From Verrucomicrobiota bacterium (GTDB lineage: Bacteria > Verrucomicrobiota > Kiritimatiellia > SS1-B-03-39 > UBA6053): a DNA stretch of 64,000 bases. Each line of letters starts with the position of its first letter. The first letter of the stretch is position 1. A program made the position numbers and the translations under genes. Shown here one piece after another: positions 45,490 through 60,934 of the stretch. Where the stretch lies: positions 1 to 64,000 of the forward strand of contig JAFIGD010000006.1 in NCBI GenBank assembly GCA_020831625.1. The letters are read 5' to 3'. The notes under the pieces were generated by a model. The model had not been told where the DNA came from, made no database searches, and saw nothing but the letters and a program-made list of their open reading frames with translations.

Positions 45490-46380
45490 TCACAGGCTGT
45501 TTATCTCCTCGATCGTTTTTGCAAATTCCGCGAGCACCTCCTCAGAAGAGAAACCCCGTCTGGATTTCGAGCCCTTCCTTTCTTCGGTCGATCGTCCTTT
45601 GGCATACAGCCATGCGCGGTATAAAGACTCCGTGGTTTTCCAAGGCAAAGACTGCGGCTTGCGAACCTTTGCCAATAAACCCAACTCACGGGGAGAACAG
45701 CCTTTTGTGAAGTTAATCAACAGGGTTAAGCCGTCCCGGCAAACACCCTGCCCCCTGGAGGCCTGCCCGTACCCGCTCCACCGATATTCGACCGGATCCT
45801 TACAGATCCCGGCCCGCATCGGATTCAAATCGATATACGCGGCCACCGAAAACAAGGCTTCGGGGGTGTCTTTCAGAACCATGCTCCGATACCGGCCGTC
45901 CCAAAACACCCCGTAAAGATTATGTTGCTTGTTATACCAGGCGGAAAACCCCTGCTTTAAAACCCTCATAAAATCCGGGAGACTGTGCATCCGTCTAAGC
46001 AGATTCGCCTCCATTTCTTTTTGCAAACACCCTGGCGCTCCCCGGTAGGCATTCATCCATGCTTCCACCTTCCGCTCCGGCCATACCCGTTCCATCCTGC
46101 GAAAAAGTTCCTCTGGCCGCACCTGTTGCGCTTTGGGAACCCACAGCAGCAGATGCACGTGGTTGTTCATCAAACAATAAGTCAGAACCGAAATGCCGGA
46201 AAAATCAGCCCAGGGGAACAGCAAATCGGTGAATACCGCCTTCTCTTCGTTTCCAAATAAAAACTTCTGCTGGACCACCCGACTGGTGACATGAACAAAA
46301 TATCCGCAGGACTTCGGAAGAACTCTGAGCCCCCGTTTTCGTGCATTCGAACCGGCTTTTTGACTTTGGTAGATCGACAT
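45490..46380 (-). CDS. REP-associated tyrosine transposase (RAYT, Y1/IS200-like)
   Basis: Protein of 296 residues of the Y1 transposase superfamily. It contains the HUH motif in LTYCLMNNHVHLLLWVPK and the catalytic-tyrosine region FSAWYNKQHNLYGVFWDGRY. The following VAAYIDLNPMRAGICKDPVEYRWSGY is typical of RAYT proteins. The start at 46380 has GGAGGATACAGAT before the ATG; longer frames to 46428 are less likely. It is a single-copy, domesticated-type transposase flanked by its own short repeats rather than by IS ends. Confidence 0.92.
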   Translation of the reverse strand: MSIYQSQKAGSNARKRGLRVLPKSCGYFVHVTSRVVQQKFLFGNEEKAVFTDLLFPWADFSGISVLTYCLMNNHVHLLLWVPKAQQVRPEELFRRMERVWPERKVEAWMNAYRGAPGCLQKEMEANLLRRMHSLPDFMRVLKQGFSAWYNKQHNLYGVFWDGRYRSMVLKDTPEALFSVAAYIDLNPMRAGICKDPVEYRWSGYGQASRGQGVCRDGLTLLINFTKGCSPRELGLLAKVRKPQSLPWKTTESLYRAWLYAKGRSTEERKGSKSRRGFSSEEVLAEFAKTIEEINSL

Positions 46381-46482
46381 ATCTGTATCCTCCATATTCA
46401 GGGTTTTGAGTTTCAACATAACCCCCACACCCCCGATAATTTGATTCTTCCACGAAAATTTGAGTTTTTCCGCATTTTTTTA

Positions 46483-46534
46483 TGCGCACCTGTTGCAACC
46501 CGACCTGCGAACCGGCCGTGCGCACCTGTTGCAC
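46483..46534. repeat. RAYT-associated repeat cores, 5' side
   Basis: Two copies of TGCGCACCTGTTGCA (46483-46497, 46519-46533) between the transposase start and the beta-mannosidase gene, in the same orientation as the pair at 45418-45469. A shorter match (GCACCTGTTGC) also falls inside the transposase coding sequence near 46119-46129. Confidence 0.88.
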
Positions 46535-46579
46535 AAAAGAATTGTAGAAGATCATGAGTTGCTTTAGAGGAGCCTCCCC

Positions 46580-49093
46580 ATGCAAAAAATAAATCTGAAC
46601 GGACCCTGGACGCTTCACCCCGCCAAATCCCCCGAAACCACCTGTCCCGCCACCGTCCCCGGTTGTGTGCACACGGATCTCATGACCGCCGGACTTCTCC
46701 CGGATCCCTGGTACCGCGACAACGAAAAGGATCTCCGCTGGGTCGAAACAAAAGACTGGGTCTACACCCGGACATTTGAAATCACCGCCGATCTGCTGAA
46801 AAGCTCCCGTCATGTCCTCCAGTTCGAGGGCCTGGATACCCTCTGCACTCTCGAACTCAACGGCCACCCCCTCGGCGAAACCGACAATATGCACCGCACC
46901 TGGGAATTTGAGGTCCACGGATTCCTCAAAGAGGGCAACAATACCCTGACCCTCACCTTCCATTCCCCGCTCGACAAAATGCGGGCCGAAGATGCCGTCA
47001 AACACCTTCCGGGCTGGAACCTTTACCACGAGGACTACCGCGGCAAAAGCTATGTCCGCAAAATGGCCTGCGCGTTCGGCTGGGACTGGGGACTCATGGC
47101 GCCCACCGCCGGCATCTGGCGCAACGTCTCCCTGCTCGCCTTTGAAAACCGGATCGAGTCGCTTCGCATTCAACAAGACCATTCCCAACCCGGCCGGGTC
47201 CAACTCCGGGTTTCCGGAAACCTGTCGTCCCCCGCATCGGGACATCTTCATATCCTGCTGGATGGCGACCTGATCCATGAACAACCGTTCACCGAAACGG
47301 ACTCCATCGATATAACCGTACCGATTCCCGAACCCCGACTCTGGTGGCCCAACGGAATGGGAGAACAACCTCTCTACGAAATCCTCCTCGAACTCGACTG
47401 CGGAGACCGTGTCCGAAAAAGAATCGGCCTCCGGGAGCTAAAGCTCATCCGGAAACCGGACGCCCACGGCGAATCGTTTCGCTTCAATGTCAACGGACGC
47501 GACATCTTCATGAAAGGCGGCAACTGGATCCCCTGCGACATCTTTCCCTCCCGCGTCGCTCCCGACACCTACCGGCACCTGCTGCGCTCCTGCGCCGACG
47601 CCCACATGAACATGATCCGCGTCTGGGGCGGCGGCATCTACGAAGACGACCTCTTCTACGACCTCTGCGATGAACTCGGACTCCTCGTCTGGCAGGATTT
47701 CATGTTCGCCTGCTCGACCTACCCCACCTTCGATCCCGCGTTTATGGACAATGTCCGCGAAGAGGCCTCCGACGCCGTCCGACGCCTCCGTCATCACCCC
47801 TGCCTGGCCCTCTGGTGCGGCAACAACGAACTCGAACAGGGACTCGTCCGCTTTGACATCGACGACTGGACCGAAACCGCCATGCCCCCTCAGGCCTACA
47901 CCCCTCTATTCGACGAACTTCTCCCCGACGTCGTCGCGCGGGAGGACGGCGCCACACCCTACTGGCCCTGCAGTCCCCATTCCCCCAACGGCGACCGCAA
48001 TCACTTCAACAACCCCGCCTGCGGCGACGCCCACGCCTGGAGCGTCTGGTTCGGCGGAGAACCCATGGAGGCCCAGCGCGAATGGGGCTTCCGCTTTATG
48101 TCCGAGTTCGGATTTCAAAGCTACCCCGAACTCAAAACCCTCGAGGCCTGCACCCTGCCCGAAGACCGAAGCATCGGACACTGGATGCTGGATTATCACC
48201 AGCGCTCCCCCAAAGGCAATCTCACCATATTCACCTACCTCCTCGACCGCTTCCGCGCCCCCGCCTCCTTCGAGGCCACCCTCATCCTCTCCCAAATCAC
48301 CCAGGCCCTCTGCATCCAAATCGCCGCCGACCACGCCCGCCGCATCCAGGGACAAATGGACGGGCTCCTCTACTGGCAAATCAACGACCTCTGGCCCGGC
48401 GCCACCTGGTCGTCCATCGACGTTTTCGGCCGATGGAAAGCGCTCCACTTCTTTGCCAAAGCCTTCTTCGCCCCCGTCCGCGTCTCCCTGCTCGAACGGC
48501 CCGAAACCGACCGCATGGAACTCCACGTCTCCAATCACCTGCCCGTCACCTTTCACGGAACCCTTCACTGGCGCGTCACCACCTGCGCCGGCGAAACCCT
48601 TGAGCAGGGCGAACAACCCGTCGCGGTTCCCTCCCAGAGCAACCGCCGCATCACCGAACTGGATTGCGCCACGCACCGTGACCGCGGCGGGAGCACCCCC
48701 ATGCCGATCGAGATCCGTTCCGTCAAACATATCCCCCGCGAAGGCGACCGGGATCTCCTGGTTTGGGGACGGGTCACCGACGCCTCGGGACGCGAAGTCT
48801 CCCGCGGATTCGAAGCCTTCTGCAAACCCAGATACTGGAACCTCACCCCGCCCGAAATCACCTGCGACATCACCCCGCACGCGGAAGGATTTCAGATCGA
48901 ATTGAAAACAAACGTCTGCGCCCCCTGGACACATCTTTCACTCAAAGACACCGAAGCCCGCTTCAGCAAAAACTATCTCAATCTCCTCCCCGGCGAACCG
49001 GAAACACTCATCTGCACCCCGCAAACACCGCTCGATGAACACAGCCTGAAAGCCCGCCTCAACATCATCCCCCTCGTCAGCCTCTTCGCCTGA
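46580..49093 (+). CDS. Beta-mannosidase (glycoside hydrolase family 2)
   Basis: GH2 enzyme of 837 residues, the usual length for beta-mannosidases. It begins with the sugar-binding domain (LNGPWTLHPA, ATVPGCVHTDLMTAGL). It has the family sequences CAFGWDWGLMAPTAGIWR, LWWPNGMGEQPLYE and MIRVWGGGIYEDDLFYDLCD, the acid/base Glu in CGNNELEQ (about E417) and the nucleophile Glu in MSEFGFQS (about E509). No signal peptide, so it probably acts on imported manno-oligosaccharides. AGAGGAGCCTCCCC precedes the ATG. No transporter or regulator is adjacent. Confidence 0.94.
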   Translation: MQKINLNGPWTLHPAKSPETTCPATVPGCVHTDLMTAGLLPDPWYRDNEKDLRWVETKDWVYTRTFEITADLLKSSRHVLQFEGLDTLCTLELNGHPLGETDNMHRTWEFEVHGFLKEGNNTLTLTFHSPLDKMRAEDAVKHLPGWNLYHEDYRGKSYVRKMACAFGWDWGLMAPTAGIWRNVSLLAFENRIESLRIQQDHSQPGRVQLRVSGNLSSPASGHLHILLDGDLIHEQPFTETDSIDITVPIPEPRLWWPNGMGEQPLYEILLELDCGDRVRKRIGLRELKLIRKPDAHGESFRFNVNGRDIFMKGGNWIPCDIFPSRVAPDTYRHLLRSCADAHMNMIRVWGGGIYEDDLFYDLCDELGLLVWQDFMFACSTYPTFDPAFMDNVREEASDAVRRLRHHPCLALWCGNNELEQGLVRFDIDDWTETAMPPQAYTPLFDELLPDVVAREDGATPYWPCSPHSPNGDRNHFNNPACGDAHAWSVWFGGEPMEAQREWGFRFMSEFGFQSYPELKTLEACTLPEDRSIGHWMLDYHQRSPKGNLTIFTYLLDRFRAPASFEATLILSQITQALCIQIAADHARRIQGQMDGLLYWQINDLWPGATWSSIDVFGRWKALHFFAKAFFAPVRVSLLERPETDRMELHVSNHLPVTFHGTLHWRVTTCAGETLEQGEQPVAVPSQSNRRITELDCATHRDRGGSTPMPIEIRSVKHIPREGDRDLLVWGRVTDASGREVSRGFEAFCKPRYWNLTPPEITCDITPHAEGFQIELKTNVCAPWTHLSLKDTEARFSKNYLNLLPGEPETLICTPQTPLDEHSLKARLNIIPLVSLFA

Positions 49094-49097
49094 CCGT

Positions 49098-49871
49098 TCA
49101 AAGCTCCCGCTGATTGCGGGTCAGTGAATCCAGCAGGTTTCGCAAAAAGGCCTCATCGCCGAGTTCCTCAGTCAGGCTTAACGGAAAGCGGATTTTCCGC
49201 TCAAAATATCCGCGCAGTTCACGATAGGCCGCGATCCGCGCCTCCGCATCCAGCCGGTCCCGCCGCGTGAGCGCCTCGACCAACAGAGCGACCTCCTCTG
49301 GAGTGGTCTCCCGCCGCAGGCGGCCCTCCACCTGCGGATGGCCCCGGAATGAATTGTACTTGCGGTCCCACCGGTCGGTGCCCGCATTCACTTCGCCGCG
49401 CGGCAGACGAATCACCAGCGTGCCCGCCGCCAGATCGCCCGGGCGTTGAAATTTCGGACTGAACAGAGAGCCAAGCCCCCCGACCACGTAAAACATCGGG
49501 AACATATCGATCACCCGGAAAAGATTGCGCACCACCACCTGCGACCCGGCCAAACGCCGCGCGCGGGAATCGATCACCCGCAGGCCCAACACCCGTTTCC
49601 CGAAGGTCTGCCCGGTGAATTTCCATTCGGTGAGCATGAAATAGGCGAAATTAAGCACAAAGAAAAGAATCATGAGCAGACCCATAAACAGGTCCTCGTC
49701 AAACAAAACCAACACGTGAAAGAGCCCCTGCAGGATGCTTTGAATTCCCAGAATCACCAGCACATCCACGCCCAGTGCCAGGGCGCGGGCCACGGGGGTC
49801 GCGAGTTGAACGTGAAAACTGACCGCGTCGGCGGTGGTGATTTCCATGCGGTGGGTGCCGACAGGATTCAT
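49098..49871 (-). CDS. RDD-family membrane protein
   Basis: Protein of 257 residues: an N-terminal RDD domain with three to four transmembrane helices (ARALALGVDVLVILGIQSIL at the start, KFTGQTFGKRVLGLRVID in the middle) and a cytoplasmic helical C terminus (about 170-257). It is the last gene of the ten-gene MoxR operon and overlaps the SpoIIM gene by 4 nt. RDD proteins have been linked to ion or solute transport; the role here is unknown. Confidence 0.88.
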   Translation of the reverse strand: MNPVGTHRMEITTADAVSFHVQLATPVARALALGVDVLVILGIQSILQGLFHVLVLFDEDLFMGLLMILFFVLNFAYFMLTEWKFTGQTFGKRVLGLRVIDSRARRLAGSQVVVRNLFRVIDMFPMFYVVGGLGSLFSPKFQRPGDLAAGTLVIRLPRGEVNAGTDRWDRKYNSFRGHPQVEGRLRRETTPEEVALLVEALTRRDRLDAEARIAAYRELRGYFERKIRFPLSLTEELGDEAFLRNLLDSLTRNQREL

Positions 49872-50863
49872 TCGCCCTCCTCCCCGCGGGTGCCCGCAAG
49901 CATCAGATACGCGGCCAGTCCGGCGGTCTGGATCACCCCGAAAGCGATTTTTACCGAATACGGCAGAATGGGCGCGTGATACTGCGAAAAGAACGATTCG
50001 ATCAGACCGGCCCACACCAGCAGAACCACCACCCCGCCGAGGAGAACGCACACCGGTTTCTGAACCCGCCGCAGGCGCGCCGCCGCAGAAAGCCGCCCCT
50101 CCGGCACCATGACCGCCCTGGCGATGAGCAGCCCCGCCTGCGCCGAAAACAGAATTGCCGGAATTTCCACGCTCCCGTGCGGCAGCAGCCAGGCGGTTAA
50201 AAACACCCCCTGACCCGCCAGCAGATAATCCACAATCACCGCGCCCAGAATCACCCCGTTGTAAAACACCACCACCAGCGTCAACACCCCGTAAAAAATT
50301 CCCAGCACCAGCACCAGAATCGACACCCGGATGTTGTTCGCCATAAGGTGCGCCGCGAAACGCGTGTGGCCCTCGGTCACATCCGGATTGCCCGACTCCT
50401 CCATCGCGACCCGCTCCGCCGGATCGCCCAGCAGATGCGCGAACGGCAGAATCACTTCTTTCACATTCGGCTCCACCGCCACCAGAAATCCGCCCATAAT
50501 TGCGCCCAGCATCAGCGCGGTCACCACCAGACCCAGCGCGCGGGTGTGCGCTCTCACCGTCGTCGCGAACGCAATCAGCGACGAGCGCACCGGAACCCGC
50601 AGCCGGATGCCGCGGTTTTCGTGGATAAACCCGAAGCCCCGCGCCAGCAGCGATTCCAGATAGGCGGTGGTGTCCGGATCCACCGTGAAGGTCCGCACCC
50701 GCATCAGATCCCCGGCCACGCTCTCGTGCAGAAAACGCAGGCGCTGGATGCCGTCGAGGTCGAGTTTCAGGGACACATCGTCCTCCAGCCGCTTGAGCAG
50801 GGCCTCGTATTCCTCCCAGAGCGGGCGGCGTTGCAGAACAAATCGTTGAAGACTGGCGATCAC
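49868..50863 (-). CDS. SpoIIM (DUF95) family membrane protein
   Basis: Protein of 331 residues with a cytoplasmic helical N terminus (LQRFVLQRRPLWEEYEALLK) and about five transmembrane helices in the SpoIIM-like pattern (NNIRVSILVLVLGIFYGVLT, LLPHGSVEIPAILFSAQAGL). SpoIIM homologues occur next to RDD, DUF58 and MoxR genes in many non-sporulating bacteria, so the sporulation name is historical. Overlaps at both ends (4 nt each). Confidence 0.9.
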   Translation of the reverse strand: MIASLQRFVLQRRPLWEEYEALLKRLEDDVSLKLDLDGIQRLRFLHESVAGDLMRVRTFTVDPDTTAYLESLLARGFGFIHENRGIRLRVPVRSSLIAFATTVRAHTRALGLVVTALMLGAIMGGFLVAVEPNVKEVILPFAHLLGDPAERVAMEESGNPDVTEGHTRFAAHLMANNIRVSILVLVLGIFYGVLTLVVVFYNGVILGAVIVDYLLAGQGVFLTAWLLPHGSVEIPAILFSAQAGLLIARAVMVPEGRLSAAARLRRVQKPVCVLLGGVVVLLVWAGLIESFFSQYHAPILPYSVKIAFGVIQTAGLAAYLMLAGTRGEEGE

Positions 50864-52218
50864 AGGCGTTGAGTTTGTTTGATGGTGAGGTATTGATTAA
50901 TCACGTCCAGGGCCAGGGTTTCGGCCCCCGGAAGCAGCAGCGGCACATTCAGGGCGCGCAGGCGGGTGCGGAACCCCTGCAGATCCCGCCACATCAGATG
51001 CCCCGCCAGAGCCTCCCAGGGATCCCCGGCGGCTTCCCGTCCGGCGAACAGCGGGGCCACGCCCGGCAGCGGAATCATCGCCACCACCACCAGATGGGAG
51101 CGGGACAGCAGATGCACCCGCTTTTCGAGCAGATCAAAGGTGGTGGCGTCGGACAGATCGGTGAGCAGAATCATCAGCGACCGCCGCCGCACATGCACGC
51201 GGGTAAAACGGACCCATTCATCGATGTCGGGATAGACCGGCTCGGGTTTCAGCCGAAAAAGACTGTTCTGAACCGTGCGCAGATGCGCGGTGCCGCTCCC
51301 GGCGCGGACAAAGGTGTCCGTCATCCGCGCAAAGGTCATCAACCCGAACAAATCGCCCTCGCGCACCGCCGCCATAGCCAGCAGGTTCGCCGCCGCCACA
51401 TAGCGTTCGAGCACGGGCTCATCCGGCCGGCCCTCGCCGCCCGGATGCGGACGGGCCGAGAGCCGCGAGTGGTCGATCACCAGATACACCTCCTGCGTCC
51501 GTTCAATCTGATAGGTTTTGGTCACCAGTTCGGATCGCTTGGCGGAAGCCTTCCAGTGAATATCCGCCGGGGTGTCGCCGGGACGGTACTCGCGGATCTG
51601 ATCGTAATCGCGGCCCTGTCCGGTGATCCGCTGCTGCCGCAGGCCGCTCTGGCCCCGGTTCAGAAACAGATTCGCCATCACCCGCCGCTCGCGGCGCAGG
51701 TCCGGATACACCCGGAAAACGAGATCCACCGCCATCCGCCGCCGCATCCGCCACAGGCCCAACCGGCTGGAAACCTCCAGCGCCCCCTCCCGCACCGCGT
51801 ACTCCCCGCGTTCACAGGGCGTGAACGAAAACACCGCCCGCACCCCCGGCGGATCGCCTTCAACCCGTCCGGTGACACTTTCCGTCTCCGCGCCGAGTTG
51901 CGGCGGAAAGGCCAGCCCAAACGTCACCGCCCCCCGCACCGCCGCCGGCATCTCCACCCGCAGCCTCACTGTTCCGGTCTGATGGTTCGCCTGCCGGATT
52001 TCCTGAACGCCCGTCACCCGCGCCTCCGCCAGCCCCGGCGCCTTTAAGACCCGGTCCGCAAGCGAAACCGACAGCAGAAGCATGGCCGACAGCATCAGCA
52101 GCGCCATACCCGCCGGATGCGCCGCCGCAAGCAGCGCCACCGGCAGCAGCCCGAGGCTCAGCGCGATCAGACGGCCGGAGGGCACCGGCGCTTTGGCGTC
52201 AGCGGGGGACTGTGACAT
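50860..52218 (-). CDS. DUF58 domain-containing protein
   Basis: Protein of 452 residues: two N-terminal transmembrane helices (about 17-55), a beta-rich extracytoplasmic part, the diagnostic DUF58 sequence PGDTPADIHWKASAKRSELV and a vWA-like fold with QEVYLVIDHSRLS. DUF58 proteins are the usual partners of MoxR ATPases. Its start overlaps the moxR gene by 20 nt. Confidence 0.93.
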   Translation of the reverse strand: MSQSPADAKAPVPSGRLIALSLGLLPVALLAAAHPAGMALLMLSAMLLLSVSLADRVLKAPGLAEARVTGVQEIRQANHQTGTVRLRVEMPAAVRGAVTFGLAFPPQLGAETESVTGRVEGDPPGVRAVFSFTPCERGEYAVREGALEVSSRLGLWRMRRRMAVDLVFRVYPDLRRERRVMANLFLNRGQSGLRQQRITGQGRDYDQIREYRPGDTPADIHWKASAKRSELVTKTYQIERTQEVYLVIDHSRLSARPHPGGEGRPDEPVLERYVAAANLLAMAAVREGDLFGLMTFARMTDTFVRAGSGTAHLRTVQNSLFRLKPEPVYPDIDEWVRFTRVHVRRRSLMILLTDLSDATTFDLLEKRVHLLSRSHLVVVAMIPLPGVAPLFAGREAAGDPWEALAGHLMWRDLQGFRTRLRALNVPLLLPGAETLALDVINQYLTIKQTQRL

Positions 52219-53164
52219 TGCGCAGAATTTCCTGAATCACTTCCGTGACCGTCAGGCCTTCAATTTCGAATTCCGGACGCAGAATCAGCCGGTGGTCCAG
52301 CACCGCCGGCACCAGCGCCTTAATATCGTCGGGGATCACGTACTCACGTCCGTCGAGCACCGCATACACCCGCGCGCCCAGCAGCAGCGCCACCGTGGCC
52401 CGCGGACTGGCACCCACCAGAATGTGCTCGTGATCGCGGGTGGTGCGGATCACCTGCGCCGCGTAGCGCACCAGTTCCGGCTGCACCGCAATACCGCCGA
52501 GGGCCGCACGCGCTTTGAGCAGTTCGCCCGGCGGCAGCACCGCCCGAACCTCATCATCTTTCAACACCGACTCCGGACTGTGCCCCTCGAGAAAACGCCC
52601 GGCCAGATCGATCTCCGTGTCCTCATCGGGATAGGTCACATGAATCTTCAGCATGAACCGGTCCTTCTGCGCCTCCGGCAGCGGATACGTGCCCTCATGC
52701 TCCACCGGATTCTGGGTGGCGAACACCGTGAACGCCGGGTCCAGCCTGAAAATCTCCCGGTCAATCGCCACCGACCGCTCCTGCATCGCCTGCAGCAGCG
52801 CCGACTGCGTTTTCGCGGGGGCGCGGTTGATCTCGTCCGCAAGCAGGAACGACGTGAACACCGGGCCTTTCACCAGCGTGAACTCATGTTCCTTCATGTT
52901 AAACACGTTGGTGCCGATGATGTCCGCCGGCATCAGATCCGGCGTCATCTGAATGCGCTGAAACTCGCAGCCGAGCACCTTTGCCAGCGTGTTCACCAGC
53001 AGGGTTTTTCCCACGCCGGGCACCCCCTCCAGCAGTGCGTGCTGGCCGGAAAAGATGACCGTCAGGCACTGATCGATCACCCCGGACTGTCCCAGGACGA
53101 CCTTGCCGATTTCGCGGCGGGCCTCATTCAAAAGTGTTTGCAAAGGTTCGAGTTCTGTATTCAT
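52199..53164 (-). CDS. moxR: MoxR-family AAA+ ATPase
   Basis: ATPase of 321 residues with Walker A (EGVPGVGKTLLVNTLAK), Walker B (FLLADEINRAPAKTQSALLQ), sensor 1 (VFATQNPVEHEGTYPLPEAQ) and the second-region sequence GASPRATVALL. MoxR proteins act as chaperone-like ATPases for vWA/DUF58 partners in cofactor insertion or stress responses. It is central in the operon, with 4-nt overlap to the DUF4350 gene. Confidence 0.95.
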   Translation of the reverse strand: MNTELEPLQTLLNEARREIGKVVLGQSGVIDQCLTVIFSGQHALLEGVPGVGKTLLVNTLAKVLGCEFQRIQMTPDLMPADIIGTNVFNMKEHEFTLVKGPVFTSFLLADEINRAPAKTQSALLQAMQERSVAIDREIFRLDPAFTVFATQNPVEHEGTYPLPEAQKDRFMLKIHVTYPDEDTEIDLAGRFLEGHSPESVLKDDEVRAVLPPGELLKARAALGGIAVQPELVRYAAQVIRTTRDHEHILVGASPRATVALLLGARVYAVLDGREYVIPDDIKALVPAVLDHRLILRPEFEIEGLTVTEVIQEILRNVTVPR

Positions 53165-54363
53165 CGTTTCGTCCGTTTCGGGTTGAGATCGTCATGAAGA
53201 ATTAAAAAGCGTTCGCGCAGGCGGTCCCCGCGGTTCATTTTCGGCAGCGGAGCCCGCGCCTGTTGATCGGCGGTCTTCCACAGCGGTTCCAGACGTTCCG
53301 GATTCGCGGCGGCGCGGGGAAGATCCGCCCGCCATTCCTCCAGACAGCGCGTTAAAATCGATTCGGCGGGCACATAGCGCTTCAGCAGATCCCGGAGTCC
53401 GTCCAGACGGCTCTGCGCGCGCCGCTCCGGCTCCTCGGACTCCGGCAAAACCGGCAGCAGCGGCAGCGCGCCCCGCCAGACCCAGAGCAGAAACACCAGG
53501 ATCATCACCCCCAGCAGCGGAGTCAGACGGTACTGCCGAATCAGGGTCATAATCCCCCGCGGCTGGCGAATGCCCATCGGATATTCCCAAAACACCACCT
53601 CGTCGCGGCCGCCCAGCGCCCACAGCAGCCATTCCGTCTGCGGTTCAAAAAACATCGCCTGATTCAGCAGCGGGGCCGCATCCGCCAGCAGCAACCATTC
53701 CCCGTCGCCCTCCGCGACCCCGAGAACCACCGCACCCTCCGGCGTCGCATACAGCACCCTCACATCCTCCCGGTTGCCTCCCGGCTCAAACACCCGGCCC
53801 GAGGACCAATCCACCCACGCGGGTGCGCCCTCGTCTGGAAAAGTACGGACCGCCACGCCGTCCGCTCCCGCCCGCCGACCGCGCACTGTCAGGTGCCGCG
53901 CCAGTGATTTATCCAGCGCAATCCACTTATCCTCATCCTCCAATTCCCGAACCGGACGTGCAGAATCCTTGTCCTCCTCATTCTCCTCCTTCTCATCCCT
54001 CCGACGCCGCTCCGACTGCGCGCGCGGCTGCAACACCACCCGGCCGCCCGCCTCCACAAATTCCACCAGCGGTTTATAGCGGACCAGGTCGCGATTGGCG
54101 TTCAGCACCACCAGCGTCACTTCACCGGGCTCCGGCTCCAGCCGGTGCAGGAGATCCAGCAGCCGCCGCGACCGCAGTCCCGGCAAGGCCTCGAGGCTCT
54201 CGAACAGAATCATGGCCCCGCGCGGATCCGCCCGCAGCGTGGAGCCCGGCGGATAGGTCATGCCGCCACGGAACTGAAGCCCGAAGGCCCAAAAAACGCC
54301 CCACACAAACGCGGCCAGAATCAGCAGCACCCCCATCCGTCCCGGAAGGCTCCCCCGGCTCAT
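53161..54363 (-). CDS. DUF4350 domain-containing membrane protein
   Basis: Protein of 400 residues: an N-terminal transmembrane helix (about 10-28), a DUF4350-like domain with GSTLRADPRGAMILFESLEA and VVLNANRDLVRYKPLVEFVE, a highly charged Arg/Glu/Asp insertion (about 118-145), a second transmembrane helix (about 282-302) and a cytoplasmic helical end. Overlaps its neighbours by 4 nt on both sides, as expected for a MoxR-operon member. Confidence 0.82.
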   Translation of the reverse strand: MSRGSLPGRMGVLLILAAFVWGVFWAFGLQFRGGMTYPPGSTLRADPRGAMILFESLEALPGLRSRRLLDLLHRLEPEPGEVTLVVLNANRDLVRYKPLVEFVEAGGRVVLQPRAQSERRRRDEKEENEEDKDSARPVRELEDEDKWIALDKSLARHLTVRGRRAGADGVAVRTFPDEGAPAWVDWSSGRVFEPGGNREDVRVLYATPEGAVVLGVAEGDGEWLLLADAAPLLNQAMFFEPQTEWLLWALGGRDEVVFWEYPMGIRQPRGIMTLIRQYRLTPLLGVMILVFLLWVWRGALPLLPVLPESEEPERRAQSRLDGLRDLLKRYVPAESILTRCLEEWRADLPRAAANPERLEPLWKTADQQARAPLPKMNRGDRLRERFLILHDDLNPKRTKR

Positions 54364-55979
54364 GATTCCGCCTCCAGTCCGATGACTTGCGCCAAAAACG
54401 CCTCCAGAGCCGAAGGTTCAGCGGGATACTCGCCATACCACACCGACTCGAAGGCCCGCCGCAGATCGCGGTACACCGGCAGCGCGCCGGGCGCGGCGTG
54501 GGAGCGGCGGGTCAGTTCAGTTTCGTAATCGCGGTTGGACTTGTAGCGGGTGATCACCAGCAGATTCCGGTCGGCCAGCCGCGCCAGATACGCCAGAAAC
54601 AGTGCCCGCAGGGCCAACCGGGTGTCCCCTTTGCCCATCAGTTCCCGCACCATGTTCATCCACTCGTCGGCCGGCAGTTCGGTGGCCAGCACCTCCTCGC
54701 GGTTCAGATCCGGCGGCGCGGCCTCTCCGGCGGGCGCGGCCTGCGACAGACGCGCCCGCCGTTTGCGGATCACCGCCCGTCCCACCAGCACCAGCAGCAC
54801 CACCCCGAGAATCACCGCCAGCAGAATCATCAGCCCCTCCGCCGCGCTCTGCAAACCGCCCAGCAACGCGGCGGAGTCGGAGAAATCCCGCTCCCGCCGC
54901 GGAAAGATCCTCCGCCACTGTTCAATGAACCATTCGATCGCATCCAGCAGGGTGTCGCCCAGCCATTGCAGCCCGTCCAACAGCGCGCGCGTGAACGGCC
55001 CCTGCTCCCGAAAATCCGGGGCCACCGTTTCCGGCGGAGCCCGCCAGAGAAATTTCCGCTGACGCGACACGGTTTCGATGGTTTCCCGCAATTCCTCCGC
55101 CTGCGCATCCGCCATCACCGGGGCCGGCAAGCCTCCCGCCAGCAGCAGCCCCAACAGCAGCAGCCGGGTCAGACCCGCCGAAAGCGCCCGGGTGCGGTCC
55201 CGCAAATCCATCCCCGTCTTTTCCGCCGCCAGCCGATAGCCGCGCAAGAGATAAAACGCCTTGTTCAGCGGATCCAGCGTCAGTCCGGTCAGGATCAGCG
55301 CACTCATCCAGAAACTCACATGCAGGTACGCATGCCAGCCGCGCACAAACGGATTCTCCATGCCGGTGAAGCTGAACCACAAATGCGGAAGAATCGCCAG
55401 CACCATCAGCCAGTTCAGCAGCACCATCAAATACAGTCCGCTGTGACCCGCCAGCACATACATGGACAATTGACGGGGGTTGCGCCCCGCGTAGTTCAGC
55501 GCCCGCTCGGGCACCGAGCCCGCCTCCCCCGGTCCCAGCGCCTCACACACGGTCAGATTCTGAAAAAAACTGAAAAGAAACGGATGCAGCAAGGTCACCA
55601 GCCGGCTCAGCGGCAGCACAAAAAGCCCCAGAGGCTGGAGGAGAAGCTGACGCCGGAACACCCGCCGCGGTTTGTCCCGGTTTTCCCACGCGGTTTCCGG
55701 ATTGATTTGCGCCAGCAGCGCGGTCGCAAAACCGGCCTGACGGTATTTCATCCACACAAACGCCACCGCCATCCCCAGCGCACCCGCCCCGAGCTGGCGC
55801 GGCGCCAGCGTGCTCTCCCACATCACCGTACAGAACGCCAGCAGACCCGCGCCGAACGGAAGCACCCCCAGCAGATACCCCGCCCAGGCCGACGCCGGCA
55901 GCGAGGCCAGCAGACTCACCGCCTCCTCCAGCAGCGGCACAAACGCCGAATCCTCCCCGGAGGTCCGCTTCCGGCTCAT
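54360..55979 (-). CDS. Multi-pass membrane protein with C-terminal DUF4129
   Basis: Protein of 539 residues with about five membrane helices in the first 300 residues, a cluster with a signal-like hydrophobic segment near 295, a central helical region, another transmembrane helix (about 395-420) and a C-terminal DUF4129-like domain (LALRALFLAYLARLADRNLL, then YESNRDYETE-like YKSNRDYETELTRR and FESVWYGEYP). DUF4129 is common in MoxR and transglutaminase operons. Start ATG 55979 overlaps the zinc-finger gene by 4 nt; the longer upstream frame is spurious. Confidence 0.82.
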   Translation of the reverse strand: MSRKRTSGEDSAFVPLLEEAVSLLASLPASAWAGYLLGVLPFGAGLLAFCTVMWESTLAPRQLGAGALGMAVAFVWMKYRQAGFATALLAQINPETAWENRDKPRRVFRRQLLLQPLGLFVLPLSRLVTLLHPFLFSFFQNLTVCEALGPGEAGSVPERALNYAGRNPRQLSMYVLAGHSGLYLMVLLNWLMVLAILPHLWFSFTGMENPFVRGWHAYLHVSFWMSALILTGLTLDPLNKAFYLLRGYRLAAEKTGMDLRDRTRALSAGLTRLLLLGLLLAGGLPAPVMADAQAEELRETIETVSRQRKFLWRAPPETVAPDFREQGPFTRALLDGLQWLGDTLLDAIEWFIEQWRRIFPRRERDFSDSAALLGGLQSAAEGLMILLAVILGVVLLVLVGRAVIRKRRARLSQAAPAGEAAPPDLNREEVLATELPADEWMNMVRELMGKGDTRLALRALFLAYLARLADRNLLVITRYKSNRDYETELTRRSHAAPGALPVYRDLRRAFESVWYGEYPAEPSALEAFLAQVIGLEAES

Positions 55980-56296
55980 CCCGCCAGCCCCCTGCGCAAA
56001 TCCTGCAGCAGAATCATCAGCCGCCCCAGCAACAGAAAAAACGACCAGGTCAGCAGAAACGAAATCAGCGACAGTCCCCACAGCGCCGCGCGGCGCAGAT
56101 ACATGCGCCCCCTGCGGTCCGGTTTTTGCGCCAGAAGTTTTTCCAGGCACTCCTTGCAGATCATCCGCCCCTCGTGCTCGACAATGCACTCCCGGCAAAA
56201 CGTGTGCCCGCATTCCGGACAGCGCGCCACCGCCTCGCGGTCCGCGTGATTGCGGCAGCGGGCGCGGGAAACGGTTTCAGGTGGAGGCGGGGTCAT
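55976..56296 (-). CDS. Small B-box-like zinc-finger membrane protein
   Basis: Protein of 106 residues. The first half has a Cys/His cluster (ARCRNHADREAVARCPECGH, then TFCRECIVEHEGRMICKECL) resembling a B-box zinc finger. The second half has one transmembrane helix (about 73-95). B-box-like fingers of this kind are predicted protein-interaction modules in bacterial membrane proteins. Overlaps both neighbours by 4 nt. Confidence 0.78.
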   Translation of the reverse strand: MTPPPPETVSRARCRNHADREAVARCPECGHTFCRECIVEHEGRMICKECLEKLLAQKPDRRGRMYLRRAALWGLSLISFLLTWSFFLLLGRLMILLQDLRRGLAG

Positions 56297-56739
56297 GACT
56301 GGATTTCAGAGGGCTGCGGGGTCATGGTTTCAATCAAATCCATAATTTTCCGGGCTTTGCCGGCAGTCGTGATTCCGCGGATGCGGGCGTACTGCGCCGC
56401 CGTGTGCAGATAAAAAGTGCAATACCCGCCCCGCATCAGCACATATACCAGCCGCAGCCAGACCAGCAGGCCCGGAACCACAAAATACCAGGTGGGTTCC
56501 GGAATCATACTGAAATGAAACGCAATCCCCACCGCCACGAAGGCCGCGCCGAAAAACCCGAGGGCCCAGGCGTGAAGACGGTTCGGCACAAAGATTGCGG
56601 CCTGAATATCGTTATAGAAAAACCGGCGGTACTTCTCCTGAACCGATCCCTCCACCAGCAGCAAATGATCACTGCCCCGGTACAGATAGGTGCGGACTCC
56701 CGGTCCCGACCCCGTGGCGATTTTGCGGTACGCGCTCAT
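56293..56739 (-). CDS. Small membrane protein of the MoxR operon
   Basis: Protein of 148 residues with two transmembrane helices (about 58-78 and 84-102). An N-terminal region contains SGPGVRTYLYRGSDHLLLVE and EKYRRFFYNDIQAAIFVPNR, and a short cytoplasmic C terminus follows. It looks like a bPH-type or similar membrane-associated domain but I cannot assign it. Start at ATG 56739 (overlap with the upstream gene); the longer frame to 57105 is spurious. Confidence 0.65.
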   Translation of the reverse strand: MSAYRKIATGSGPGVRTYLYRGSDHLLLVEGSVQEKYRRFFYNDIQAAIFVPNRLHAWALGFFGAAFVAVGIAFHFSMIPEPTWYFVVPGLLVWLRLVYVLMRGGYCTFYLHTAAQYARIRGITTAGKARKIMDLIETMTPQPSEIQS

Positions 56740-57332
56740 ACCATGTTCTCCATAAGCGCTATAAAGAAAAATACCCAGCCGGTGATTTGCGCCAGAGCCA
56801 GCAACGCCGCGAAAACAAAGCGTGCCCTTGTCCGCGGCACCACGCTGCACGGGTGACGGTTCCAGTAACGGATCACCACAAACAATGCGGCCGGCGCGGT
56901 GAGAATCGACGCCCAGAAAAACAGAACCGGAACCACCGCCAGCATCAGCGCCAGATTGTCGTACACGATCCGTTTCGCGCCCCCGGGGGCGGCATCCACC
57001 TTCAGCGCATTTTGCTGACGTTTGGCGAAGCAGGACAGGCACACCGAATCGCCCCGGTCCTCCACCACGCAAAGGGAGCAGACGAAAACGCCGCAGTCCG
57101 CGCACACCGCCACCGCCTTGTGATTCGGATGGTGGAAGCAGGTGGACGCCCCCTCCACAAACCCCGTGTCCGCCACCGACGGCAGCACCGTCACCCGCTC
57201 ATACGCGGGAAAACGGTGAAACTGAATCCGCTTCTTCTTTGAACACGGACACACCTGCTCTCCCCGGCCGGGACGCGCCAGCGGAAATTTGATCTTGTGA
57301 CAGACCGGGCAGGTGATTTCCGGCAGGCTCAT
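56736..57332 (-). CDS. B-box-like zinc-finger membrane protein
   Basis: Protein of 198 residues. An N-terminal zinc-ribbon-like ITCPVCHK/VCPCSKK part is followed by a B-box-like finger (STCFHHPNHKAVAVCADCGV, then FVCSLCVVEDRGDSVCLSCF). Two to three transmembrane helices follow (about 128-150 and 168-192). The same finger type recurs in the 106-residue protein of this operon, implying that the two proteins bind related partners. Confidence 0.78.
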   Translation of the reverse strand: MSLPEITCPVCHKIKFPLARPGRGEQVCPCSKKKRIQFHRFPAYERVTVLPSVADTGFVEGASTCFHHPNHKAVAVCADCGVFVCSLCVVEDRGDSVCLSCFAKRQQNALKVDAAPGGAKRIVYDNLALMLAVVPVLFFWASILTAPAALFVVIRYWNRHPCSVVPRTRARFVFAALLALAQITGWVFFFIALMENMV

Positions 57333-58162
57333 CGATGAATCACCCGCGTGTCCGCCATCCGGTCATGCAGGGTGCGGTTTTCGGAGTCCCACAGCATCAT
57401 CAAAAACCCAAGCCCTAAAAAAATTAAACTGATATTTGAGGCCAATTCACGGCCCAGTGCCCGCAAATAAGTTATGCGTGAGCCATCAGGACGTATCGCC
57501 TTGATTTTAACCGCCATCATTCCCGGGGTCGCTTGAAAGCGCGGGTTGCCCACAAAATATGCCAAATACGCCGTCTGCACCCCAAAAGAAAGCACTAGAT
57601 AAGTGATCAGCATGGGCGTTTCCAGAGATTCCCAGTAGGCCTCCTGGAAGCCTAGACCAAAAAAGAAGTTCAATATTGAAAGATATATTTGAGCGATAAT
57701 TCCATCAATAAACAAACCAAGCCAGCGGGTGCCAAATCCCGCATACCGCAGATTGCGGCTCAGTGGGTCGACGCCCTCACGGATTTTCTGCAAAGTCACA
57801 TCGCGACAATGCACGCAGACAAAGCGGTCCCCCATCGGAATCAGTTCGTTCTCCCATACCCGCGCCCCGCAGGCCGGACAGGCGATCATCCCTCCGGATT
57901 CCGCCATTTTCGGCTTAAACCCGGCGGCGGCCAGAGGATTCGAAGAGGCCGGGACCGCATCGGCGGGCGGTGCGGCCGCAGAAGTCGTCGGCGGTGTCCA
58001 GAAACCCTGCGAGCGCGCATCCGCCAGCGTCATCCAGTCCGCCATCCCCTGACAATACACCAGGGTAGGGTCCAGAATCAGGCCTTGCACCTGCAGGCGC
58101 GCAAACTCAGCGTCCTCAACCGGACCCGCCTGCTCATTGTTCTCAACATAAAACCACTGCAT
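57329..58162 (-). CDS. GYF_2 / zinc ribbon / RDD multidomain membrane protein
   Basis: First gene of the operon, 277 residues. Domains in order: a GYF_2-like module (MQWFYVENNEQAGPVEDAEF with WMTL, residues 1-55), a Pro/Ala linker, a zinc ribbon (IACPACGARVWENELIPMGD, then FVCVHCRDV) and an RDD membrane domain with about four helices (GTRWLGLFIDGIIAQIYLSI, then ATPGMMAVKIKAIRPDGSRI). The membrane half is more AT-rich than the rest of the operon. GGAGAGTTTTT precedes the ATG. Confidence 0.85.
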   Translation of the reverse strand: MQWFYVENNEQAGPVEDAEFARLQVQGLILDPTLVYCQGMADWMTLADARSQGFWTPPTTSAAAPPADAVPASSNPLAAAGFKPKMAESGGMIACPACGARVWENELIPMGDRFVCVHCRDVTLQKIREGVDPLSRNLRYAGFGTRWLGLFIDGIIAQIYLSILNFFFGLGFQEAYWESLETPMLITYLVLSFGVQTAYLAYFVGNPRFQATPGMMAVKIKAIRPDGSRITYLRALGRELASNISLIFLGLGFLMMLWDSENRTLHDRMADTRVIHR

Positions 58163-58284
58163 AAAAACTCTCCAGTATGTGGGTTACGCATTCCCTACGC
58201 AGGCCGTTTCGAAAATTCAACGCCGGAAAGATTTTTTTACATAGGCAATCAGGTCCGGCAGGTTGCTGAAGGATATGGCTTCGA

Positions 58285-59583
58285 TTAAAATCTGGAATCA
58301 GACCGCAGTCTCCGAATCCATTGCTTTTGACTTGGATCTTCGAATAAAGCGGGAGTCGGTTTTTTTTCCGCAGCTTCGCCTGAACTTTCCGGCAAAGGGT
58401 TGATCTCCAGAAACCACGCCAGTGCCAGAGGAAAGTGGGGGGCGTGTTCCCGGTGTCCCCCATCATATAACTCCAATCGTAAATGCCTGAAACGAGCTTG
58501 CCGTAAATCCTCCATCATAGAGGTCGCATGATTTTCGTTCGCGATATTGTCGGAACGCCCGTTGCTCATGAACATCGCGATGTGATCACAGTCGGCGGTG
58601 CGGGTTTTAAGATGCTCCTTGTACCTTACAGCAAAGGCCTCGTTACACCCGCCCATGTAAACACCACTGATCGTAAACCCGTCAGCGTTCAGCATCATAG
58701 CCATGGCACCTGCCCATTTTGCCCCGCCTGAAAACCCGCCAGTCGCGATCGGCCATCGGCTGAACCCGGGCCAATACGTTTCAAGATATCTCATCAGAGT
58801 CATAAACGCCACATAAGTAGGCGCGTTTTTACGGTCATCAGCAGGATCATCCCAACCCGCTGCGATCACCACCCAGTCTTCATCCCCAAGGAGTCTGGCA
58901 TAGTGCGGCCCCCGTTGTATATGCCTCCCTTGCCCACTGCCGGTGACAAGGGGAAGAAAAACGGGATGGACTTTCCTGGGATCGAAGGTTTCCGGCACAC
59001 GAAGGCCCGCGTTGATTTCACGTTTATCTTCATAACCCTCGGGAAGCAATGCGTGCAGATCATCTGGAATAGGAAGTTTAAAGGTTTCAAACCGTCCTCC
59101 CGGTTGAACCGACAAGATCGGAAGTTTTAACATTTCAGCAATAATTTGCCCCTCCCGGATCCGCAATTTTTCATCTCGGGTCTGCCGCCAGAGGCTCAAA
59201 ACAGCCTGATCCCCGTCTTCAAACACCTCCAGCGGAAGACGTCGTTTCCCGCTCTCCCATTCCAACAATACGCCGGCGTCGTTCACATCACGCAGATGCG
59301 CAAGCACTTCATGCCCGGATCGGGTTCTCCAGGTCTTTATCAAAATGTCATCCGGCGCAGTTACATGTCGGATCACATGATAACGGTCACCCACACTCAG
59401 GTCCGTGAACTTCACAGACACTGACACACCGGAGGCGTTTTCAAGCCTCACGTCTTCACCGAGCAGCTCCAGGAGGTCCCCTTCAAAGGTGTGACCGGTT
59501 AACGAAGTCCATACGCGCGTTTCATTCGCCAAAGTAACGCCTGAAAATATCATGAGAAGTACAAGCCTGATAAGATCCTTCAT
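58285..59583 (-). CDS. Secreted SHD1-like domain / alpha-beta hydrolase fusion
   Basis: Protein of 432 residues with a signal peptide (LVLLMIFSGVTLA). The first part (about 20-120) has an SLA1-homology (SHD1)-like repeat: RVWTSLTGHTFEGDLLELLG, then VRLENASGVSVSVKFTDLS. The C-terminal part is an alpha/beta hydrolase with the nucleophile elbow GGFSGGAKWAG and a late His in LYDGGHREHAPHF. The SHD1-hydrolase arrangement is typical of PVC bacteria. The substrate is unknown. Confidence 0.75.
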   Translation of the reverse strand: MKDLIRLVLLMIFSGVTLANETRVWTSLTGHTFEGDLLELLGEDVRLENASGVSVSVKFTDLSVGDRYHVIRHVTAPDDILIKTWRTRSGHEVLAHLRDVNDAGVLLEWESGKRRLPLEVFEDGDQAVLSLWRQTRDEKLRIREGQIIAEMLKLPILSVQPGGRFETFKLPIPDDLHALLPEGYEDKREINAGLRVPETFDPRKVHPVFLPLVTGSGQGRHIQRGPHYARLLGDEDWVVIAAGWDDPADDRKNAPTYVAFMTLMRYLETYWPGFSRWPIATGGFSGGAKWAGAMAMMLNADGFTISGVYMGGCNEAFAVRYKEHLKTRTADCDHIAMFMSNGRSDNIANENHATSMMEDLRQARFRHLRLELYDGGHREHAPHFPLALAWFLEINPLPESSGEAAEKKPTPALFEDPSQKQWIRRLRSDSRF

Positions 59584-59710
59584 GACATCGGTATATACCC
59601 TCTTATCGGTTTTGAAACAATATCAATGACACGCTGCAGCTCCGCTCTTTGAACGGAATACATCGCGAACAAGTCTGGTATTCCCTCGAACGTCCTATTA
59701 GGATGAGAGA

Positions 59711-60934
59711 ATGCAACGGCTCAACATCCCCAATACCGTCAGTCTCACCCGCATTGCGGCGGCACCCTTCCTCCTGTGGGCGGCGTTCGCGGATGCCCCG
59801 AAGATCTTTCTCGGCGTGTTCGCGTTTATGATGGTGACCGATTTTCTCGACGGCTTTCTGGCCCGGGCCCTGAACCAGCAAACCGTGTTGGGCTCGCAGC
59901 TGGACACCCTCGGCGATGTGCTGACCGCCCTGTTTGTGATTCCCGGCGGCTGGCGGCTGTGGCCGGAGGTGGTGCGGGAGGAGGCGGTCTTTTTCATTTT
60001 GGTCCCGGTGATCCTCGCGGTCTCAGGATCGGTGTGCTTGATTCGTCACGGCCACCTGCCCTCCTATCACACCCGAGCGGCGAAACTCGCGACCGCGGTC
60101 GCCGGCGTGAGCGTATGGGTGCTGTTTGCCGGATTCACCCCCTGGCTGTTCCGCGGCGCGGTGGTCCTGCTGGCGGCGTCGGCGGTGGAGGAAATCTGGA
60201 TTTCGCTTTTGCTGATCAAGTGGCACCCGAATGTGCCTTCGGTGAAACAGGCCATCCGCGAACGCGCGGATGCGATGCTCGAAGCCGGCGGGGAACTCAA
60301 AACGCCCTCCCGAAAGGAGGAGCTGGCCAACGGACTGACCCACGGCCTCGGCGCGGTCACCGCCGTTCCGGTGCTGGTGCTGATGGTGGTCCGCGCCTCG
60401 CTGCTCGGCGATCCGTGGATGATTGTCGGCGTTTCCATTTTCGGCGCCAGCCTGGTGCTGATGTACACCTGCTCCACCCTCTATCACGCCCTGCCCGCCT
60501 CCAAAGCCAAAGCCCGGTTTCGGATTTTCGACCATGTGTCTATTTTCATTTTAATCGCCGGCACCTACACCCCGTTCACCCTTGGACCCCTGCGCGGCCC
60601 CTGGGGATGGAGTCTGTTCGGGGTGGTGTGGGGCCTCGCGCTGATCGGCGCGGTTCTCAAAGTTTTCTTTACCGGCCGTTTCGGGATCGTCTCCGTTTTC
60701 GTTTACATTGGCATGGGGTGGCTGGTGCTCATCGCCTTCCATCCGCTTCTTCAGGCGGTTTCCACACTCACAGTGGGTCTGCTGGCCGCCGGAGGAATGG
60801 CCTATACTCTCGGCACTGTCTTCTACGCCAGCCGCAAACTGAGATACAACCACAGCATCTGGCATCTCTTCGTCCTCGCCGGCAGTGTGCTGCATACCCT
60901 CGCAATCTTCACCCTGCTTCAGCCGCCGGCGTAG
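59711..60934 (+). CDS. Fusion of CDP-alcohol phosphatidyltransferase and hemolysin III/PAQR-type membrane protein
   Basis: Membrane protein of 407 residues. Residues 1-185 are a CDP-alcohol phosphatidyltransferase with the complete signature DG-x2-AR-x8-G-x3-D-x3-D (D44, D47, G48, A51, R52, G61, D65, D69). Residues about 200-407 are a seven-helix hemolysin III/PAQR-like domain: ELANGLTHGLGA, STLYHALP, RIFDHVSIFILIAGTYTPF and HSIWHLFVLAGSVLHTLAIF supply its Glu/Ser/His/Asp metal-site residues. The start has AGGATGAGAG before the ATG. The reading frame is continuous with consistent codon usage, so this is a real fusion. It may make a phospholipid and then remodel or hydrolyse it. Confidence 0.88.
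   Translation: MQRLNIPNTVSLTRIAAAPFLLWAAFADAPKIFLGVFAFMMVTDFLDGFLARALNQQTVLGSQLDTLGDVLTALFVIPGGWRLWPEVVREEAVFFILVPVILAVSGSVCLIRHGHLPSYHTRAAKLATAVAGVSVWVLFAGFTPWLFRGAVVLLAASAVEEIWISLLLIKWHPNVPSVKQAIRERADAMLEAGGELKTPSRKEELANGLTHGLGAVTAVPVLVLMVVRASLLGDPWMIVGVSIFGASLVLMYTCSTLYHALPASKAKARFRIFDHVSIFILIAGTYTPFTLGPLRGPWGWSLFGVVWGLALIGAVLKVFFTGRFGIVSVFVYIGMGWLVLIAFHPLLQAVSTLTVGLLAAGGMAYTLGTVFYASRKLRYNHSIWHLFVLAGSVLHTLAIFTLLQPPA

Follow-up and report, generated by a model that had tools for sequence, protein, structure and literature searches.

Pairs of MoxR-type AAA+ ATPases and von Willebrand factor type A (vWA) proteins are widespread, and the clients of most of them are unknown. In several bacteria, SpoIIM homologues are encoded next to genes for a vWA protein and for a MoxR-type ATPase (COG0714), an arrangement for which membrane remodelling was proposed in 2015, and archaeal DUF4350 genes occur with AAA+ and vWA genes, for which secretion or remodelling was proposed (PMC5898192, in the excerpts available). 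In Mycobacterium chelonae, genes for DUF4350, MoxR, DUF58, SpoIIM and RDD proteins are listed as jointly down (-6.2 to -7.3), with near-consecutive MAB counterparts (0386c-0390c) and the counterparts Rv3691-Rv3695 (table of PMC8191103), and adjacent DUF58 and MoxR genes are down in M. smegmatis mutants (excerpt of PMC4694148). The NorQ-NorD pair is described in mechanistic terms: a finger of the vWA domain reaches into the pore of MoxR, and twisting of a linker by the pair is proposed as its way of acting on a membrane enzyme, a finger-in-pore mode that the authors presume to be general (PMC13036017, sections available). Here we analyse a ten-gene operon on the minus strand (positions 49098-58162) of a 64,000-nt stretch of Verrucomicrobiota DNA, hereafter termed the window, in which a MoxR-DUF58-SpoIIM-RDD core is joined by four genes for adaptor-like membrane proteins, two of them with binuclear zinc fingers.

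This operon resembles several described systems in part. The neighbourhoods of PMC5898192 are presented, in the text available, without mention of GYF, finger or PH-like partners and without the terms "RDD" and "DUF58", whereas the operon has ten members in a usually fixed order. The DUF4350/arCOG01314 secretion system would be marked by a DUF4350 gene with MoxR and vWA genes; the candidate in the operon, gene 6, has a DUF4350 score of 29.6 bits, slightly under the Pfam cut-off of 30.4. The mycobacterial cluster shares five of the six core families, neighbouring and co-regulated, but no finger, GYF or PH-like genes are named in the part of the PMC8191103 table available; the mycobacterial expression tables fit a co-regulated core. 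NorQ-NorD likewise combines a MoxR AAA+ ring with a vWA partner on a membrane protein, but the DUF58 protein of the operon has transmembrane (TM) segments and a D-x-S-x-x-S motif, and the other eight proteins have no description in the sections of PMC13036017 available. RavA-ViaA, too, pairs a MoxR with a vWA protein and has a link to the inner membrane or a respiratory enzyme; no SpoIIM, RDD, finger, GYF or PH-like partner is named in the extracts of PMC9489729 and PMC10585395. The vWA-MoxR-VMAP systems share MoxR and vWA proteins with the operon, and GYF domains occur in related systems, but the operon has no recognised VMAP or effector domain, and "SpoIIM", "RDD" and "DUF58" are absent from the available text of PMC7159879. 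For RDD itself, a conserved intramembrane site facing the cytoplasm is mentioned by authors citing work in preparation (PMC12419801, excerpt). Among the matches listed in a full-text literature search that covers few subscription papers and no bioRxiv preprints as such, none, by title or by the passages available, brings B-box or GYF proteins together with MoxR, SpoIIM and RDD; PMC5898192 and the mycobacterial tables come nearest. Part of the core grouping is thus already known, and the ten-gene set with its adaptors appears to be undescribed in the literature searched.

The ORF listing of the window places the ten consecutive ORFs on the minus strand from 58162 down to 49098 (Table 1), and the coordinates bear out the initial annotation of one operon with nine overlaps: from gene 1 to gene 10 the overlaps measure 4, 4, 4, 4, 4, 4, 20, 4 and 4 nt (9/9 junctions, eight of 4 nt and one of 20 nt), with an ATG start at eight junctions and GTG at SpoIIM. 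The domains called at that stage agree with Pfam, with two refinements described below: gene 3 (sm) is PH-like, and the finger of gene 2 (bb1) is B-box/FYVE-like. No Ig-like or S-layer protein was found among the ten proteins.

In order to measure how strictly the finger genes follow the core, we surveyed 685 genomes from three phyla: 288 from that of the window, 198 from that of genome G306 (locus L115, a Desulforapulum autotrophicum metagenome-assembled genome) and 199 from that of G316 (locus L130, Solibacteraceae). The cut-offs were set after the score lists had been seen, at E <1e-70 for the SpoIIM subtype of the operon and E <1e-24 for full-length bb1. They fall in score gaps, which are wide in the first phylum, running from 1e-104 to 1e-30 (SpoIIM) and from 1e-33 to 1e-13 (bb1), and run from 1e-73 to 1e-56 and 1e-25 to 1e-14, respectively, in the third. 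Absences hold among a capped number of candidates scored per genome and are accordingly not absolute. The SpoIIM subtype was found in 46 genomes and bb1 in 44, with both in 43, SpoIIM only in 3, bb1 only in 1 and neither in 638. In the phylum of the window the SpoIIM subtype occurs in 35 genomes and a full-length or nearly full-length gene 2 in 33, 32 of them shared; in the phylum of G306 both occur in the same 4 genomes, and in that of G316 in the same 7, two of which have intermediate SpoIIM scores. Full-length bb1 was found in none of the 69 genomes that carry only other SpoIIM types (15, 9 and 45 by phylum). In a closer set of 58 genomes, comprising that of the window and its relatives, gene 2 and SpoIIM occur in 14 each and are shared by 13; the two mismatches are genomes whose contigs end inside the operon, G056 in DUF58 and G029 in DUF4350. 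Within the family of the window (11 genomes), both genes are present in 5 and absent from 6, and within its genus the numbers are 2 and 2. This joint variation of the pair within the family is harder to explain by ancestry alone. The initial annotation had counted the finger genes as part of the MoxR set and had named in advance the observation that would contradict this, namely that fingers rarely accompany moxR in relatives; this was looked for and is not what we found.

Linkage was examined in named loci, taken as the best 80 of 273 SpoIIM relatives. All ten families lie together in 39 of them, in the order of the window in 37; in two Cerasicoccus genomes, gene 1 (gyf) is placed between genes 3 and 4. 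The gene order thus recurs in distant taxa, which we regard as more than chance. By record title, the complete loci belong to Kiritimatiellota, Verrucomicrobia, Desulfobacterales/Geobacteraceae, Acidobacteria, Hydrogenedentota, Phycisphaerae and Poribacteria; metagenome assemblies make up the majority, but Trichlorobacter thiogenes and Cerasicoccus are isolates. When the count is restricted to the 45 long loci, in which the sequence available upstream of the end of SpoIIM measures at least 9.8 kb (35 shorter ones excluded), 37 hold all ten families. The families missing in range are rdd in L097, gyf in L139, gyf and bb1 in L132, the four adaptors in L115, L116 and L163, and more than these in L102 and L121. 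All six long loci without bb1 have it elsewhere in the genome. On the SpoIIM contig it lies at a distance of about 12 kb in L115 and L163 and of about 142 kb in L132; in L102 the distance is about 2.2 Mb, and in L116 and L121 the gene is on other contigs. Gene 1 lies beside the displaced bb1 in 5/5 long loci looked at (all but L115). The break points differ: L132 is split behind gene 2, L163 behind gene 4, L116 within gene 5, L121 behind gene 6 and L102 behind MoxR, the block up to MoxR being the part of L102 that lies about 2.2 Mb from DUF58-SpoIIM-RDD. Among the short loci, 28 of 35 show no bb1, a separation that an assembly break can explain; 12 of these 28 were searched genome-wide. Taken together, 17 of the 18 genomes with no bb1 at the SpoIIM locus (6 long and 12 short loci) carry it elsewhere. 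Further split genomes were observed: genes 2-3-4 lie about 1.1 Mb from DUF58-SpoIIM-RDD on one contig in G120; the four-gene block and the core occupy separate contigs in G106 (236 and 385 kb) and different contigs in G296; G254 and G237 are split further down the operon; the block is located after the core in G151; and genes 1-2 are on one contig and the remainder on another in G024. Close linkage is common but not required, and co-occurrence outlasts unlinking. In a flank survey of ORFs of at least 90 aa around the 80 named loci, no flanking family was present in more than 12 loci, and hence no eleventh member was found. The commonest families, which we take to be response-regulator-like, der-like, rarA-like and ABC-transporter ATPase proteins, occur at 12, 11, 10 and 10 loci, each confined to some loci.

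The MoxR proteins themselves were compared in a midpoint-rooted tree of 46 sequences, 32 of which are of the operon type (the window, 27 chosen named loci, 3 of which have no adaptors in reach, and four of the split genomes). The 32 operon-type MoxRs form one clade (support 0.81), and the six MoxRs linked to SpoIIM at loci without fingers form its sister group. Outside both groups fall the second MoxR of L183, two extra Cerasicoccus MoxRs and the five other strong MoxRs of the window's genome, in which six of the eight AAA_3 matches are strong (E 4.9e-60 or better). The fingerless loci (L177-L184, 8 fetched of 15 genomes in the phylum of the window) resemble the operon in that MoxR and DUF58 lie near SpoIIM in 6/8, with RDD too in 5/8, but they differ in gene order and SpoIIM subtype; bb1, sm and bb2 (gene 4) matches are found in 0/8 and weak gyf matches in L183 and L184. 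The finger genes had originally been viewed as an added adaptor layer. They do belong to the set, but the idea of an addition in one lineage has to be given up: as judged from sequence comparison, the ten-gene arrangement with adaptors is what one MoxR clade usually has, across several phyla, and is not lineage-specific.

Table 1. Genes of the operon in the window, in transcriptional order (aa, amino acids).
Gene	Coordinates	Strand	Product and features
1 (gyf)	57329..58162	-	277 aa; GYF_2 aa 3-48, zinc ribbon C95/C98/C116/C119, RDD membrane domain 140-270
2 (bb1)	56736..57332	-	198 aa; N-terminal zinc ribbon, B-box/FYVE-like binuclear finger, C-terminal membrane helices
3 (sm)	56293..56739	-	148 aa; predicted PH-like domain, TM hairpin inserted between strands 5 and 6
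4 (bb2)	55976..56296	-	106 aa; binuclear finger C14,H17,C26,C29,C34,C37,C47,C50 and one TM helix
5 (d4129)	54360..55979	-	539 aa; membrane-spanning N-terminal part, C-terminal DUF4129; 5 predicted TM segments in all
6 (d4350)	53161..54363	-	400 aa; DUF4350-like, two TM segments
7 (moxr)	52199..53164	-	321 aa; MoxR AAA+ ATPase, Walker A GVPGVGKT, Walker B DEIN
8 (d58)	50860..52218	-	452 aa; DUF58 vWA-type, two N-terminal TM segments, overlaps moxr by 20 nt
9 (spo)	49868..50863	-	331 aa; SpoIIM family membrane protein, GTG start, 6 TM segments
10 (rdd)	49098..49871	-	257 aa; RDD membrane protein, C-terminal extension of ~100 aa

The four adaptor-like proteins combine small domains with membrane segments. 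In gene 1, Pfam recognises GYF_2 (39.5 bits, cut-off 25.8) and RDD (78.6, cut-off 24.1) on either side of a CxxC...CxxC ribbon whose cysteines are invariant in 13 aligned members. Among the homologues scanned, DUF975 stands in place of RDD in those of L133, L120 and L127, and more weakly in L119 and L134; in the first three, the GYF-zinc ribbon is fused to DUF975 as though the head were constant and the membrane part swappable. In gene 2, the ribbon cysteines are C8, C11 and C28, then C30 in the protein of the window, and the eight finger ligands (C65, H68, C77, C80, C85, C88, C98 and C101) are all invariant in 14 relatives; in a wider set of 39, C65, H68, C77, C85 and C88 are invariant and C80, C98 and C101 are conserved in at least 90%. 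We call this finger B-box/FYVE-like because of a Pfam zf-B_box score barely above the cut-off (24.9 vs 24.1 bits) and weak structural matches of FYVE, LIM, RING and B-box type. The AlphaFold2 model (predicted local distance difference test, pLDDT, 85.4; predicted template modelling score, pTM, 0.55) retrieves FYVE-type or related solved structures with Z 5.2-6.1, all <8, and root mean square deviations (rmsd) of 1.7-3.2: 1vfy (Z 6.1, rmsd 1.7 over 50), 2zet (Z 6.0, 2.9 over 55), 2a20 (Z 5.8), 2yw8 (Z 5.3) and 2cjs (Z 5.2). Foldseek returns mostly LIM domains, one RING and the MuRF1 B2-box 3ddt (E 1.9), none at E<=0.001, and in sequence comparison with solved structures the best match lies in the ribbon (E 0.0052), the Midline B-boxes following at 0.12-0.17. 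Most structure rows for gene 2, including 14-3-3, CorA and nicotinic receptors, match the helical membrane part only and were dismissed as generic. The gene has no match in the plasmid collection searched, and in the window's genome its profile detects no fingers besides the two that this operon encodes. Finger-only matches to gene 2 are found in other proteins of many genomes, in open frames of <100 to >700 codons, and bacterial fingers of this type therefore have other contexts.

The small finger protein encoded by gene 4 has ligands invariant both in 11 relatives and in the 33 members of a wider set; Pfam matches it to several RING/B-box models, all under cut-off (zf-B_box 18.6 vs 24.1). 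Comparison of the two fingers by hhalign (probability 98.3, E 1.2e-14, 50 columns) substantiates the earlier view that they are paralogous. Bacterial B-box domains reportedly partner membrane proteins and bind peptides (a view attributed to Burroughs, Iyer and Aravind, 2011). Gene 3, initially described only as a small membrane protein, does have a membrane hairpin, but this label missed a predicted fold: although no Pfam match exceeds the cut-off, the AlphaFold2 model (45 sequences; pLDDT 91.1, pTM 0.80) shows five strands, the TM hairpin, two strands and a C-terminal helix, and its best 50 PDB entries are, by title, of PH/PTB/FERM-F3 type, bacterial PH domains included (Z 8.1-9.6; top match Z 9.6, rmsd 2.8 over 91). 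A BBSome chain and an hSac2 domain among these 50 presumably belong to this kind as well. Foldseek (best E 0.053) and sequence comparison with solved structures (best E 0.086) give weaker matches. Gene 3 is thus predicted to encode a PH-like domain with an inserted TM hairpin. Its relatives (n=50) fall into 23 of at most 220 aa and 27 of at least 329 aa, the copy of the window being of the short form. Given the chemistry of zinc thiolates, the fingers probably face the cytosol, and the positive-inside count agrees with a cytosolic placement for genes 1, 3 and 4.

Among the six core proteins, Pfam assigns DUF4129 to gene 5 (31.4 bits, cut-off 24.8), AAA_3 (205.2 bits, cut-off 27) and AAA_lid_2 (76.1 bits) to gene 7, whose Walker motifs are both intact, DUF58 to gene 8 (65.7 bits, cut-off 23.4), SpoIIM to gene 9 (109.6 bits, cut-off 26.9) and RDD to residues 24-150 of gene 10 (64.6 bits, cut-off 24.1). 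DUF58 is presumably a vWA fold. Gene 8 has a third hydrophobic stretch (375-393) within its vWA part, and its motif resembling a metal ion-dependent adhesion site (MIDAS), D249-x-S251-R252-L253-S254, is conserved in homologues (D249 70/70, S251 69/70, S254 63/70), with Leu at the position of the second Ser of the canonical motif in 67/70. For SpoIIM, sequence comparison with solved structures gave no match at E<=1.

We consider it an even call whether the products of these ten genes work as a single functional system in the inner membrane, with a MoxR-DUF58 motor on a membrane core and four adaptors. An ATP-driven remodelling motor would be formed by MoxR, as a ring, together with the DUF58 vWA protein anchored in the membrane, by analogy with what has been proposed for NorQ-NorD, and it would act on an integral-membrane core made up of SpoIIM, RDD, DUF4129 and DUF4350. 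The four adaptors, tethered to the membrane, would expose modules that bind peptides or head groups on its cytosolic side, where they may recruit or sense a client and gate motor and core. In the most speculative step, this client would be a membrane-embedded protein or lipid-linked molecule that is assembled, moved or extracted, and the system would thereby maintain or rebuild the envelope. The full proposal, that an undescribed ten-subunit ATP-driven inner-membrane machine moves or rebuilds such a client in at least seven bacterial groups, is put forward tentatively, as possible rather than probable. If it holds, its adaptors would be of fold types (PH/PTB-like, FYVE/B-box-like and GYF) best known from eukaryotic membrane-trafficking and scaffold proteins. 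One MoxR clade has a nearly constant partner set in different phyla, among cultured bacteria and metagenomes alike. The role of the MoxR-DUF58-SpoIIM-RDD genes becomes directly testable, the adaptors serving as handles on the client and the fingerless sister loci as a natural control.

Several observations weigh against the single-system reading. The Fisher test over the 685 genomes (p 1.8e-63) ignores shared ancestry. In their distances, bb1, sm and bb2 correlate only modestly with the core (0.41-0.67), and gene 1 does so weakly (0.09-0.37). The set is patchy in the family and even in the genus of the window, and hence dispensable. G281 has bb1 without the SpoIIM subtype, and G029, G239 and G261 have the SpoIIM subtype without full-length bb1; in G029, the SpoIIM contig begins inside DUF4350 and bb1 was not found elsewhere in the genome either. 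A further genome, G314 (L104), is without bb1 in the genome-wide search, and eight of the 45 long loci are without at least one family in range. The finger is not exclusive to the set: a finger-only match to gene 2 occurs in 24 of the 69 genomes with other SpoIIM types (2/15, 1/9 and 21/45 by phylum), never within 100 kb of the other-type SpoIIM on one contig, although three share a contig with it at >100 kb. Gene 1 is the least constant member, with DUF975 for RDD in some loci and, in Trichlorobacter, a Zn_ribbon_4 domain replacing GYF. The DUF58 protein departs from the canonical MIDAS motif D-x-S-x-S (PMC13036017, section available), having the spacing D-x-S-x-x-S instead. The positive-inside count for gene 2 gave N-out, a result spoiled by a false TM segment counted inside the finger. 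Finally, the adaptor function is suggested by fold class.

The same data bear on other explanations. The adaptor block and the core might be merely co-regulated members of one pathway, such as envelope stress, that form no complex and whose packing secures co-expression only. The distances between the parts in several genomes favour this, as they imply that fixed stoichiometry from one mRNA is not essential, but the near-complete co-occurrence, the two paralogous fingers and the small membrane proteins without a recognised enzymatic domain suggest subunits, and we regard pure co-regulation as rather unlikely. A metal-linked role, in which MoxR-DUF58 metallates or metal-gates a membrane protein and the fingers and ribbons sense or donate zinc instead of acting as peptide adaptors, has a precedent in NorQD, which inserts iron into nitric oxide reductase with a MoxR/vWA pair (PMC13036017, section available), and conserved zinc ligands are found in the two ribbons and the two binuclear fingers of the set. 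Against it, the eight finger ligands would fit structural cross-brace sites, and since no flank family is conserved, no metalloenzyme or transporter client is visible in the flanks; such a role seems improbable.

Relations to conflict and sporulation systems are less probable still. A match of gene 7 to PF20030 bpMoxR (38 bits, cut-off 27) and the patchy distribution within the family would suit a biological-conflict system related to the vWA-MoxR-VMAP ternary systems; however, AAA_3 scores far higher (205 bits), no effector or VMAP domain is found in the Pfam or PADLOC matches of the ten proteins, and the order is conserved over phyla, with only the membrane part of gene 1 varying. As PADLOC gave only two marginal matches (E 0.00094 and 0.00077), a defence or conflict system was set aside as very improbable. 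That gene 9 is a clear SpoIIM-family protein recalls the sporulation DMP engulfment complex, where SpoIIM would direct peptidoglycan hydrolases. We searched for its partners and found SpoIIP in 0/58 and SpoIID in 0/58 relatives, 14 of which have this SpoIIM; the same searches detected SpoIIP in 1 and SpoIID in 6 of 14 control genomes. With no peptidoglycan enzyme in the Pfam scan of the ten proteins either, DMP-type engulfment is disfavoured to the point of being scarcely credible. A single inner-membrane system with MoxR-DUF58 as motor is the reading that we favour for the operon.

At the nucleotide level, the operon contains ten families of direct repeats of 20-43 nt and two inverted pairs, all imperfect and likely due mostly or wholly to chance. 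Rfam gave no match across positions 46000-62000 of the window, and promoter and terminator counts were not above those of shuffled sequences (2 vs 2.5 and 12 vs 12.8, respectively). A 432-aa ORF (58285-59583), likewise on the minus strand, precedes gene 1 by 122 nt; it has no Pfam match at E<=1e-5, and none of the ORFs of loci L049-L066 and L086-L165, which carry the operon, is related to it. Beyond it, in an ORF on the plus strand (59711-60934), residues 4-149 form a CDP-alcohol phosphatidyltransferase domain and residues 202-395 a haemolysin-III-related membrane domain, a fusion that, to our knowledge, is uncommon. Elsewhere in the window, positions 14629-16836 (minus strand) encode a DsbD-like thiol:disulfide interchange protein.

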